From Winogradskyella alexanderae (GTDB lineage: Bacteria; Bacteroidota; Bacteroidia; Flavobacteriales; Flavobacteriaceae): a stretch of DNA of 64,000 bases. Under the pieces are notes generated by a model. It did not search any database. It was not told where the DNA came from and worked only from the letters and a program-made list of their open reading frames with translations. How positions within the stretch are numbered: the first letter of the stretch is position 1; the number at the start of each line of letters is the position of its first letter. A program made the position numbers and the translations under genes. Positions 37,195 to 40,217 of the stretch are shown here, one piece after another. The DNA is taken from NCBI RefSeq assembly GCF_020166335.1, contig NZ_JAIUJR010000001.1:248001-312000 (forward strand). The letters are read 5' to 3'.

Positions 37195-39093
37195 ATGAGT
37201 GATGCAATAAAACATGAGTGTGGTATAGCTCTTATAAGGCTGTTAAAACCATTAGAATACTACAAAGAAAAATACGGTAGCGCATTTTATGGTGTAAATA
37301 AAATGTATTTGATGATGGAAAAACAGCACAACAGAGGCCAGGATGGTGCTGGTTTTGCTAGTATTAAACTAGATACAAAACCTGGTGAACGCTATATCAG
37401 CCGTGTAAGATCAATTGCACAGCAGCCCATACAAGATATTTTTTCTCAAATTAATGAGCGTGTAAATAAAGAGTTTAGCCTACATCCAGAATATCAAAAT
37501 AACGTAGCGTTACAAAAAAAGCATATACCTTACATTGGAGAACTTTTACTTGGTCATGTTAGATACGGTACTTTTGGCAAAAACAGTGTAGAGAGTGTGC
37601 ATCCCTTTTTGAGACAAAATAATTGGATGCACCGAAACCTTATTGTGGCTGGTAATTTTAATATGACCAACGTTACAGAATTATTTAACAATTTAGTCGA
37701 AATAGGACAACACCCAAAGGAGAAGGCAGATACCATTACAGTAATGGAAAAAATTGGACATTTTTTAGACGATGCCGTATCCAAGATCTATAAAGATTTA
37801 AAGAAAGAAGGTTATTCTAAAATAGAATGCTCTCCTTTAATAGCAGAACGATTAAAAATCAGTAAAATTCTTAAGCGAGCTGCCAAAAATTGGGATGGTG
37901 GTTATGCAATGGCTGGATTACTAGGACATGGCGATTCCTTCGTATTAAGAGATCCAGCCGGAATTCGACCGGCCTATTATTATAAAGATGATGAAGTTGT
38001 TGTGGTTGCTTCTGAGCGCCCTGTAATACAAACAGTTTTTAACGTTCCGTTCGAAGAGGTTGTAGAATTAGCTCCTGGGAATGCAATTATTATCAAAAAG
38101 TCTGGTTTTACAGAAATAAAACAAATTTTAGAGCCATTAGAGCGTAAGGCTTGTTCTTTTGAACGTATCTATTTTTCTAGAGGTAGTGATGCCGAGATTT
38201 ATCAAGAACGAAAAGAATTAGGAAGATTATTAATGCCTAAGGTTCTTGAAGCCATTGATAATGACACAAAAAATACTGTGTTCTCATATATCCCTAACAC
38301 AGCTGAGACATCATTCTTTGGAATGATAGATACTGTTGAGGAGCACCTAAACCATAAAAAGACTGAAGTGATATTGAGGGGGAAAAGAAGTCTTTCTGCG
38401 GAAAAGGTTGAAGAAATATTATCAGAAAGGCCTCGAATAGAAAAAATCGCTATTAAGGATGTTAAACTCAGGACCTTTATAACCGAAGATAGCAGTAGGG
38501 ATGATCTGGTGGCACATGTTTATGATATAACCTATGGTGTTATAAAACCATCTGATAATCTTGTAATTATTGACGACAGTATTGTACGTGGTACCACTTT
38601 AAAAAAGAGTATCATTAAAATGATGGATCGATTAAATCCTAAAAAAATCATTGTGGTTTCCTCTGCGCCTCAAATAAGATATCCCGATTGTTATGGTATT
38701 GATATGGCAAACCTTGAAAGTCTAATTGCATTTAGAGCTGCATTAGAGCTTCTGAGGGACTCCGGAAAATACAATCTTGTTGATGAAGTTTATCAGAAAT
38801 GCATTACTCAAGTTGGAATGAAAGACAAGAATGTACAGAATTATGTCAAAGAAATTTATGATAGCTTTTCCGATGATGAAATTTCCGATAAAATATCAGA
38901 GCTCTTAAGCGATGAAGATGTAAAAGCAGAGGTGAAAATCATCTTTCAACCCGTTAAAAACCTTCACAAAGCTTGTCCTAATAATTTAGGCGACTGGTAC
39001 TTTACTGGAGACTACCCAACACCTGGAGGAAATAGAGTGGTAAACAAAGCGTTCATAAATTTTTATGAAGGCAACAAAGAACGCGCATATTAA
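37195..39093 (+). CDS. PurF-like class II glutamine amidotransferase / phosphoribosyltransferase (632 aa)
   Basis: A 632-residue protein, longer than standard PurF (about 500). The nucleophile Cys is residue 9 (IKHECGIAL), so an eight-residue propeptide would have to be removed to expose it, as in some PurF enzymes. The glutaminase domain shows MEKQHNRGQDGAGF and LLGHVRYGTFG; the phosphoribosyltransferase domain has the PRPP loop VIIDDSIVRGTT and the upstream VKLRTFI segment. It could be the purine-pathway amidophosphoribosyltransferase or a paralogue with another substrate; no other purine gene apart from purN is near. It follows the PfkB gene and a terminator. Confidence 0.85.
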   Translation: MSDAIKHECGIALIRLLKPLEYYKEKYGSAFYGVNKMYLMMEKQHNRGQDGAGFASIKLDTKPGERYISRVRSIAQQPIQDIFSQINERVNKEFSLHPEYQNNVALQKKHIPYIGELLLGHVRYGTFGKNSVESVHPFLRQNNWMHRNLIVAGNFNMTNVTELFNNLVEIGQHPKEKADTITVMEKIGHFLDDAVSKIYKDLKKEGYSKIECSPLIAERLKISKILKRAAKNWDGGYAMAGLLGHGDSFVLRDPAGIRPAYYYKDDEVVVVASERPVIQTVFNVPFEEVVELAPGNAIIIKKSGFTEIKQILEPLERKACSFERIYFSRGSDAEIYQERKELGRLLMPKVLEAIDNDTKNTVFSYIPNTAETSFFGMIDTVEEHLNHKKTEVILRGKRSLSAEKVEEILSERPRIEKIAIKDVKLRTFITEDSSRDDLVAHVYDITYGVIKPSDNLVIIDDSIVRGTTLKKSIIKMMDRLNPKKIIVVSSAPQIRYPDCYGIDMANLESLIAFRAALELLRDSGKYNLVDEVYQKCITQVGMKDKNVQNYVKEIYDSFSDDEISDKISELLSDEDVKAEVKIIFQPVKNLHKACPNNLGDWYFTGDYPTPGGNRVVNKAFINFYEGNKERAY

Positions 39094-39097
39094 ATTC

Positions 39098-39138
39098 GAT
39101 AAAAACGCCTTTTTATCCGATAAAATAAGTATTTTATC
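39098..39138 (+). repeat. Two back-to-back AT-rich hairpins after the PurF-like gene
   Basis: GATAAAAA-cgcc-TTTTTATC (39098-39117) is followed one base later by GATAAAAT-aagt-ATTTTATC (39119-39138). Both are perfect 8-bp stems. The first could act as a weak terminator 4 nt after the stop; the facing arms in the middle can also pair with each other, so alternative folds are possible. Confidence 0.5.
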
Positions 39139-39168
39139 TATGAATTGTGCATTTCATCCAATATTTAC

Positions 39169-39197
39169 TTCGTTTTAACAAATTAAATATACATTAG
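39169..39197 (+). promoter_or_regulatory. Promoter of small-RNA-like unit 1
   Basis: TTCG (39169-39172), a 17-nt spacer and TACATTAG (39190-39197): each box differs by one base from the Bacteroidota TTTG/TAnnTTTG consensus. Unit 2 has the perfect form with exactly the same spacing. Confidence 0.5.
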
Positions 39198-39273
39198 AGT
39201 CACCATAACATAAGTAGGTTAAGTTCATGGTAGATTTGGGGCAAAAAAAGGTGAACAATGTTCACCTTTTTTT
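39198..39273 (+). ncRNA. Candidate small RNA, unit 1 (with own terminator)
   Basis: A predicted transcript of about 71 nt starting near 39203. The body is the same as in unit 2 from AGTCACC to the terminator stem, apart from one C/T difference (39226) and one extra A. A possible 5' helix pairs ACCATAA (39202-39208) with TTCATGGT (39224-39231), weakened by an A-C mismatch at the variant base. The terminator is GGTGAAC-AAT-GTTCACC plus seven T residues (39250-39273). No conserved reading frame is present. The family is not recognised. Confidence 0.65.
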
Positions 39274-39402
39274 ATGGACTTACTTGAAGTATTACTTTAA
39301 GTTAATAGCACAGTTCTATATATTTCAATATTAACATATGTAAACAATTGCTACACTTTCCACCCTTAGACTAATATATAGGTCGTTTATCCAATAAATT
39401 CA

Positions 39403-39431
39403 TTTGTTAAATTATAGTGCACTTATATTTG
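39403..39431 (+). promoter_or_regulatory. Promoter of small-RNA-like unit 2
   Basis: TTTG (39403-39406), a 17-nt spacer and TATATTTG (39424-39431): a perfect Bacteroidota sigma-A promoter with no gene start downstream, only the short repeat unit and its terminator. Confidence 0.7.
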
Positions 39432-39507
39432 AGTCACCATAACATAAGTAGGTTAAGTTTATGGTAGATTTGGGGCAAAAAAGGTGAACTCTCTGTTCAC
39501 CTTTTTT
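39432..39507 (+). ncRNA. Candidate small RNA, unit 2 (with own terminator)
   Basis: A predicted transcript of about 71 nt starting near 39437 and ending in the terminator GGTGAAC-TCTCT-GTTCACC plus six T residues (39483-39507). The terminator stem is identical to unit 1 but the loop differs in sequence and length (5 versus 3 nt), while the upstream body is almost invariant. ACCATAA (39436-39442) can pair with TTATGGT (39459-39465) as a 7-bp 5' hairpin, leaving a GATTTGGGGC-type single strand before the terminator. It is placed between the PurF-like gene and sod (convergent). Confidence 0.7.
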
Positions 39508-39608: not shown

Positions 39609-40217
39609 TTACTTCGCCTCGGCATAACGCCTTTCAACTTCATTCCAATTAATTACTTTAAAGAAGGCTTCAATATAATCAGGTCTTCTGTTTTGATATT
39701 TGAGATAATATGCATGCTCCCATACATCGAGCCCTAGTATTGGCGTTCCGCCACAGCTAACGCCAGGCATTAATGGATTGTCTTGATTTGGCGTAGAGCA
39801 TACCTCTACTTTTCCTCCTTTATGAACACAAAGCCATGCCCAACCAGAACCAAACTGGGTTGCAGCTGCTTTACTAAAAGCTTCTACAAAAGCGTCTTTA
39901 GATCCAAATTCTGCTTCAATTGCGTCTTTTAATTCACCTGACAAATAACCTCTGTCTTCAGGATTCATTACATCCCAAAAGAGACTGTGATTGTAAAATC
40001 CACCTCCATTATTTCTAACTGCGCCATTAGCCATGTCCAAGTTGGTAAGAATATCTTCAATTGATTTTCCTTCTAAATTAGTTCCTTCTATGGCTGCGTT
40101 AAGTTTTGTGGTATATCCGTTATGATGCTTACTGTGATGTATTTCCATTGTTCTTGCATCAATATGTGGTTCTAAAGCATCGTATGCATATTTTAATTTT
40201 GGTAGTTCAAAAGCCAT
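39609..40217 (-). CDS. sodA: Superoxide dismutase (Mn-type of the Fe/Mn family)
   Basis: A 202-residue cytoplasmic enzyme converting superoxide to oxygen and peroxide. The four metal ligands are His27 (MEIHHSKHH), His76 (YNHSLFW), Asp163 and His167 (LDVWEHAYY). The glycine run at 70-72 and Gln144 in PNQDNPLM are the second-sphere pattern of manganese enzymes, though cambialistic use of iron is possible. It is a single-gene unit with a -7 box upstream and its own terminator, convergent with the small-RNA units. Confidence 0.95.

Follow-up and report, generated by a model that had tools for sequence, protein, structure and literature searches.

Two tandem units in the window (the whole 64-kb stretch of DNA that was analysed) are very probably genes of Flavobacteriaceae-specific small RNAs (sRNAs), which would act in trans by base pairing, would repress exported proteins and would have a co-regulated target or sponge RNA. 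The family represented by these units has a nearly invariant core and occupies one fixed locus in most of the Flavobacteriaceae sampled. Judging from the literature searched, it appears to be previously undescribed. The analysis also revealed an unannotated family of ~41-aa proteins. If the proposal is true, the surface-protein and lipoprotein output of flavobacteria is tied to one RNA circuit.

The two units and their relatives

Two nearly identical blocks had been pointed out in an earlier note, and they were confirmed in the window sequence at 39198-39273 and 39432-39507. From AGTCACC (starting at 39198 and 39432) up to the terminator the only differences are a C/T substitution and a single A of an A-run, and the intervening DNA is unrelated sequence, as had been claimed. 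Unit 1 (39202..39273, + strand, predicted 5' end) is C-type and scored 98.1 bits with the covariance model; unit 2 (39436..39507, +) is U-type and scored 96.1 bits. Compared with dinucleotide shuffles, the folding energies of the units had z-scores of -3.24 (0/200 as good) and -3.01 (2/200). The 5' hairpin of unit 1 (39202..39231, +) can be written as ACCAU.AAC.UAA(GUAGG)UUA.GUU.Y.AUGGU, where Y, the C/T position, is a bulge. Predicted seed 1, CATAAGTAGGTTAAG, consists of the apical loop and its flanks (39209..39223, +), predicted seed 2, AGATTTGGGGC, is single-stranded (39232..39242, +), and the intrinsic terminator of the consensus fold lies at 39245..39273 (+). The corresponding parts of unit 2, assigned on the same basis, are at 39443..39457, 39466..39476 and 39478..39507 (all +). 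The predicted sRNAs are ~71 nt long, and both genes lie between an amidophosphoribosyltransferase-like ORF, which we take to be purF (37195..39093, +), and a convergent Fe/Mn superoxide dismutase-like ORF, presumably sod (39609..40217, -).

A covariance-model search of the own genome returned 23 places at E ≤ 10, with the two true copies at 98.1 and 96.1 bits and the next place at 28.4 bits. The next-best places (L183-L188) were rejected as copies, since they represent terminators or hairpins of other kinds, or else unit 1 read from its opposite strand. A minus-strand match (G000 C11:469.4 kb) was also considered as a degenerate third copy; this match is antisense to the multi-site partner RNA described below. 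When unit 2 was used in a DNA search, matches (E ≤ 0.01) were obtained in 242 of 299 Flavobacteriaceae genomes, some of the weakest of which (G015, G228, G253, G293; E 1.9e-5 to 0.007) may be matches to the terminator only; matches in so many genomes of the family show that the blocks are not due to chance. In an order-wide sample, searched with stricter filters and with family counts tallied by hand, covariance model R1 matched 42/50 genomes of the family at E ≤ 0.001 (for 40 of these genomes E was about 1e-12 or lower) and 25/246 genomes of other families, where none of the matches listed exceeded 39 bits. The sRNA family is apparently confined to Flavobacteriaceae.

The ~40-nt core ACCATAACATAAGTAGGTTAAGTTYATGGTAGATTTGGGGC was 96-100% identical at each column except Y (C in 171, T in 101) among 272 distinct units, most of which had been selected through an exact 18-mer; that part of the core is biased, and the columns beyond the 18-mer were likewise conserved. 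The RNAalifold consensus consists of a 5' hairpin with the loop GUAGG and Y bulged, the single-stranded AGAUUUGGGGC and a covarying terminator. The substitution had been thought to disrupt the 5' helix of unit 1; this did not hold, since the C/T position (alignment column 30) lies unpaired in a bulge of one nucleotide, and the change is thus neutral for the hairpin. Departures from the hairpin consensus were seen in nine cells, seven giving G-U pairs and two breaking a pair, and the invariance of the 5' hairpin in window-type units is too high for covariation support. The intrinsic terminators, also part of the original description, are well supported: their stems covary, and double changes were kept in 8/12 pairs. 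The core is nucleotide-invariant whatever the reading frame, in agreement with the claim that no frame is conserved. Taken together, the comparative data support the view that this is a duplicated regulatory-RNA gene with a promoter and a terminator for each copy.

The arrays contain one to six copies. Two-copy arrays have a C-type unit followed by a T-type unit (U in the RNA) in 87 of 107 cases, the rest being C-C; among the 17 three-copy arrays, ten were CTT or CCT, three CCC and four of other orders (CTC, TTT, TCC, TCT), and the five-copy arrays were CCCCT (3) and CCCCC (2). First and last units differ in the operator (see below), the -10 box, the length of the A-run and the terminator end, which suggests that they are paralogues of long standing, each maintained separately. 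One locus (L096 1785-1864) has a truncated unit joined directly to the start of a second unit, which is likely a product of recombination in a tandem array.

Both neighbours were present at 135 of 161 related loci, purF only at 15, sod only at seven and neither at four, so that purF was found at 150 and sod at 142; in this set some genomes were entered twice, and many loci ended at 3-8 kb or at contig ends. Single units remote from purF and sod were seen at L034, L080, L100 and L107 in unrelated contexts, one of them by an integrase-like ORF. The fixed place between purF and convergent sod and the terminator-like ends could also fit a local cis element, i.e. a terminator or attenuator of these genes, or a REP-like mobile repeat, but this is very improbable, given that each unit has its own -10 box and operator, that the unpaired core is invariant, that at four loci the unit is remote from both genes, and that complementary sites occur elsewhere.

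A second sRNA subfamily, with the layout YATAAGTAGGTTG-hairpin-ATCAAATTTGGGGCGAAAAG-terminator, was found at nine loci (L492, L496-L498, L500, L503, L506-L508, near 1454-1589). Its loop-type segment YATAAGTAGGTT and single-stranded segment CAAATTTGGGGC were invariant in 9/9 loci except for Y. The intervening hairpin varied in sequence and length, with seven pairs changed on both sides. Seed 2 is slightly different here (CAAATTTGGGGC as compared with AGATTTGGGGC of the window units). That two scaffolds carry nearly the same two segments supports these segments as the working parts. In 7/9 loci the second-subfamily unit lies 85-247 nt 3' of an ORF beginning with MKRR, which was Asparaginase_2 in the three tested.

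It might be argued that the conserved product is a small peptide, as ATGGTAGATTTGGGGCAAAAA translates as MVDLGQK in unit 2. We give this reading practically no weight: third positions hardly vary in the 272 distinct sequences, the length of the A-run, and hence the frame, differs between copies, the GGTAAGATTT variant shifts the frame, and the second subfamily lacks such an ORF start.

Promoters and the repeated operator

Each unit had been described as preceded by a promoter with 17 nt between its boxes, TTCG/TACATTAG for unit 1 and TTTG/TATATTTG for unit 2. These boxes are present in the window, but only the -10 part of the description holds family-wide: in 306 upstream regions aligned on the -10 box no -33 box was detected (0.03-0.36 bits per position). 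What is conserved instead is the -10 box together with an upstream 14-bp operator, TTYRTCYAAWAWWT, repeated at 20 bp. The motif had a score of more than 6 bits in 280 of the 298 upstream regions; 150 of these regions have another copy 20 bp further upstream, and 49 have a third one at 40-41 bp. By motif score, unit 1 has three such boxes, all on the + strand: TTTATCCGATAAAA (39112..39125), TTTATCTATGAATT (39133..39146), which is 20 bp ahead of the next, and the promoter-proximal TTCATCCAATATTT (39153..39166), which lies inside GCATTTCATC, the usual form in first units; they are followed by the -10 element TACATTAG (39190..39197, +), placed by the aligned upstream regions. Unit 2 has a distal box, TTAGACTAATATAT (39366..39379, +), a proximal box, TTTATCCAATAAAT (39386..39399, +), which has the form usual in last units, GTCGTTTATC, and the -10 element TATATTTG (39424..39431, +), placed in the same way. 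In general, the operator is mostly GCATTTCRTC in first units and mostly GTCGTTTRTC in last units.

The two best-scoring operator pairs of the 64-kb window were those of units 1 and 2. Across the own genome the operator-pair pattern gave 81 matches as compared with 87 for the control, i.e. no excess. Two further pairs with 20-bp spacing were noted in this genome, one of 18.9 bits upstream of an ECF sigma factor-like gene (L335 1544-1578; G000 C51:~70943) and one of 25.4 bits upstream of a small lipoprotein-like gene (L330 1594-1628; G000 C48:~31793); these genes are possible further members of the operator regulon. LytTR-type operators are described as 9-11-nt repeats, 11-13 nt apart, and the YpdB motif as GGCATTTCAT (PMC4847170). 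The operator described here, with its 20-bp repeat and, in first units, a proximal box that is often GCATTTCRTC, resembles these in layout, and a LytTR-type regulator is weakly predicted.

Complementary sites at gene starts

The unpaired stretch GATTTGGGGC had been suggested as a target-pairing seed, and it is indeed one of two core segments whose complements were over-represented at gene starts. The stronger one, the hairpin loop, was absent from that suggestion. The two segments with matches beyond those of shuffled sequences are AAGUAGGUUAAG, which forms the apical loop, and GAUUUGGG, which is single-stranded. These counts come from 1,089 predicted genes of the own genome (the window and 60 further stretches, 1.26 Mb of 3.31 Mb). 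Duplexes of -22 kcal/mol or better were formed at 53 gene starts as compared with 16.8 (sd 5.9) for 30 dinucleotide-shuffled sRNAs, none of which reached 53 (top shuffle 34), and with nine for the reversed sRNA. At -24 kcal/mol the values were 24 as compared with 5.0 (sd 3.3; 0/30 shuffles reaching 24) and three for the reversed sRNA; at -26 kcal/mol the counts became too small (6, equalled by 1/30 shuffles). With a home-made predictor, exported-like proteins made up 20 of the 53 in the -22 set, as compared with 24.5% overall (Fisher p 0.020) and with 117/504 for the shuffled sRNAs. Gene-start samples from a second genome with the sRNA (311 genes) and from a genome without it (354 genes) were too small to decide.

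In the same 1,089 genes AACCTACTT was the commonest of 1,680 same-composition 9-mers at gene starts, and other complements of the loop were top-ranked as well (CCTACTT 1/140, ACCTACT 1/210, AACCTAC 1/140); the complement of the single-stranded stretch, CCAAATC, gave a milder signal (rank 3/140). Against dinucleotide shuffles, the counts of loop 8- and 9-mers were not extreme (69/300 and 43/300), and those of loop 10-mers were (3/300). In a search with one seed, AAATCTACCATRAA, no excess was found (176 as compared with 231 for the control), nor was there one, overall, with the pattern AACCTACTTN{0,12}ATGAA in 42 genomes containing the sRNA (85 and 77, respectively). The search with CCCCAAATC gave 20 matches as compared with four for the control; two of these are the units, and most of the other 18 were rejected as they lie inside reading frames of the opposite strand.

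Ten AACCTACTTATGAA places were inspected, eight in six other genomes and two in the own genome. Three of them, at lipoprotein-like genes (L475, L477, L479), had CCCAAAT 12-30 nt upstream, and a CAP lipoprotein gene of the own genome (L482) had CCCAAA upstream, whereas at an exported-like gene start (L473) upstream CCCAAATC was absent, as were CCCAAAT and CCCAAA. The remaining places were a 56-aa ORF (L481) and four without an ORF over 31 aa. These places suggested the bipartite pattern CCCAAATN{15,45}AACCTACTT, which gave 130 matches in 98 of the 299 genomes as compared with 65 for the reversed pattern. Thirty-one of these 130 matches are antisense to sRNA genes themselves. Without these, there were 95 matches as compared with 55 for the control in the 242 genomes containing the sRNA, and four as compared with ten in the 57 genomes lacking it (Fisher p 0.019), although the shared ancestry of the genomes makes this and other across-genome p values overstate significance.

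For a finer count, 34 matches beginning with CCCAAATTTGAT and three apparent self-antisense matches were set aside, leaving 93. Of the 34, 29 proved to be antisense to genes of the second sRNA subfamily and five to be start-codon sites; the possibility that the 34 represent a coding motif was checked and rejected. Two of the three self-like matches are antisense to sRNA genes; the third represents the partner leader of G219 (see below). ATGAA occurred in 40 of the 93 matches as compared with 7.05 expected from shuffled spacers. In these 40, the frame from ATG to AACCTACTT was mixed (15/15/10), which favours a constraint at the level of RNA over one at the level of protein. In 42 of the 93 a C follows CCCAAAT, which lengthens the pairing.

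Among the candidate targets, CAP-domain lipoproteins had sites in four genomes of three genera (PF00188 E-values: L482, 5.9e-9; L486, 4.3e-20; L487, 1.6e-19; L489, 3.4e-15), and other predicted targets were secreted-looking by eye. Starts of TonB-dependent transporter and susC-like genes showed no enrichment with the UUYAUGG seed, the sole seed tried on them: for 16 transporter-type starts (of 30 loci) the mean was -12.56 kcal/mol as compared with -12.08 for 133 controls. A fifth CAP-lipoprotein-like case (L504) was recognised by eye. Two small membrane-like proteins, of 56 aa (L481, G000 C11:121107) and 42 aa (L490, G260), have AACCTACTT at the start codon and, judged by eye, are apparently homologous.

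The partner RNA and the proposed circuit

A predicted, unannotated RNA coding for a ~41-aa protein (in the own genome G000 C11:469459-469581, + strand, L158) carries one to five sRNA-complementary sites in its leader, preceding and overlapping the ORF. The protein family ends with LTKKxFML and was found at further loci (L483, L485, L488, L493, L513-L532); two members tested against Pfam and NCBIfam had no match. The own-genome leader has three sites (-33.4, -41.5 and -20.2 kcal/mol), that of G130 forms four duplexes, one of them across two motif copies, and that of G219 contains a 31-nt perfect complement 5 nt ahead of the ATG (-59.8 kcal/mol). These first examples are biased, having been found through the site pattern. 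A protein search, which is blind to the sites, had matches in 245 genomes, and 20 further leaders were chosen among those that scored higher. These leaders contained 52 sites of -20 kcal/mol or better as compared with 3.8 for shuffled and three for reversed sRNA, with at least one site in 20/20 and at least two in 18/20 leaders.

The partner genes also have the operator. The mean score of the operator pair in 25 leaders was 12.4 (lowest -5.2) as compared with -7.8 for shuffled sequences (maximum 11.1 of 500), and the spacing was 20 bp in 20 of the 25. By hand count, the -10 box sits about one helical turn closer to the operator than in the sRNA genes. Such a multi-site RNA under a like operator is the strongest evidence for a base-pairing action of the units.

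The small ORF was detected (E ≤ 1e-3) in 115 of the 242 genomes with the sRNA and in none of the 57 without it, a count that may miss short or divergent ORFs. This nested occurrence, and the fact that complementarity in the ~41-aa leader, overlapping its start codon, surpasses all other sites by a wide margin in both strength and number, would also be expected if the sRNA mainly silenced this one RNA, as an antitoxin-like dedicated pair acting in trans, with the sites at genes for exported proteins being side effects or chance. We consider this unlikely, but not negligibly so, because the sRNA is present in 242/299 genomes and the small ORF in just 115 of these 242, and because the start-region excess spans many genes and sites recur at CAP-lipoprotein genes of four genomes, which represent three genera.

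Sibling or tandem sRNAs of Proteobacteria, such as PrrF1/2 and RybB/MicA, repress outer-membrane or iron proteins at start regions. They likewise occur as tandem or related copies; the units described here have a different operator, and we know of no relation between them and PrrF1/2 or RybB/MicA. Like sRNA sponges or target mimics such as chbBC-ChiX, the partner RNA has sRNA-complementary sites by which it could titrate the sRNA. Its sites, however, number up to five, they precede or overlap a small ORF, and its operator is that of the sRNA genes.

An Rfam check including Flavo-1 had been recommended. No Rfam 15 family reached its gathering threshold for the units, and in a scan of the window (including Flavo-1, 6S and riboswitches) tRNA-Ala alone was above threshold. 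In the accessible part of the report on FopS/GibS of Bacteroides (RF04319), these are short paralogous sRNAs pairing at translation starts of outer-surface mRNAs (PMC11697453). The similarity in size, paralogy, intrinsic terminators and start-codon targeting, a sub-threshold RF04319 match and the motif UUCAUGG...UAGAUUU, common to the FopS consensus, raise the question of whether the units are divergent members of that family. This is improbable: the match has 22.4 bits and E 0.27 as compared with a gathering score of 56, the pairwise shuffle p (222/20,000, 0.011, uncorrected) loses its significance once the number of families searched is allowed for, and among the class-wide matches listed with loci no credible intermediate was recognised by eye. 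The FopS R1' seed, UUCAUGGUAUUAGAUUUAAGG in the consensus and in class-wide matches, was not found in the units, which have only UUCAUGG...UAGAUUU, with a 3-nt gap, in common with it; this stretch is partly within the hairpin here, and the second subfamily lacks UUCAUGG. Unlike FopS/GibS, the units form a syntenic tandem array of two (1-6) copies, their seeds are a hairpin loop and a single-stranded stretch 3' of it, no enrichment of TonB-dependent transporters was seen, and there is a multi-site partner RNA with the same operator.

The Rfp sRNAs of Flavobacterium psychrophilum (Rfp1-89) are, in the part of the paper that was available, independent transcripts, some of them conserved beyond the species, with Rfp18 affecting proteases (PMC9723704). 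Rfp18 pairs through its third stem-loop, whereas the RNA described here has two helices; one of the Rfp RNAs, which were compared by text description, may be this sRNA. The studies found on post-transcriptional regulation in Bacteroidota concern Bacteroides and one fish-pathogenic Flavobacterium, and their available parts contain no description of this sRNA family. Nor was a paper describing it recognised among those listed on flavobacterial sRNAs, purF/sod or sponges, and neither TAAGTAGGTTAAG nor its complement was found in the literature text searched.

Returning to trans-acting, base-pairing sRNAs as the preferred reading, each unit appears to have its own promoter and intrinsic terminator, and the conserved, accessible seeds have putative sites at gene starts. 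Sequence comparison shows a layout of GUAGG-loop hairpin, single-stranded GAUUUGGGG(C) stretch and terminator. An activator bound to the 20-bp-spaced operator would induce both the sRNA and the partner RNA. The single-stranded GAUUUGGG would pair with CCCAAAUC ahead of the start codon or around it, and the loop with AACCUACUU at or just past it. This bipartite pairing would block the ribosome and repress translation, with lipoproteins and further exported proteins being the main ones affected. The multi-site RNA would be both the best target and a sponge limiting free sRNA. Repression rather than activation, and a sponge rather than a plain target, are what we infer from the sequences. Since seeds, targets, operator and partner RNA are all predicted in concrete terms and the core is invariant, small mutations can test the family directly.

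A wider proposal, which we put forward tentatively and hold to have somewhat less than an even chance of being right, is that this is a self-buffered RNA switch throughout the family. One activator would induce a two-seed sRNA that clamps start codons and a small-protein RNA that soaks up the sRNA and is translated only when the sRNA is saturated, and the C- and U-type copies and the second subfamily would be kept to divide messages and sponge between them. At 67 sponge sites the U-type unit paired better in 33, the C-type unit in 21, and the two were equal in 13, with no clear preference for either type.

The ~41-aa ORF is convergent with an ORF of the opposite strand, which in the own genome is a peptide ABC-transporter ATPase-like gene, and in some genomes it lies downstream of a CoA-transferase-like ORF.
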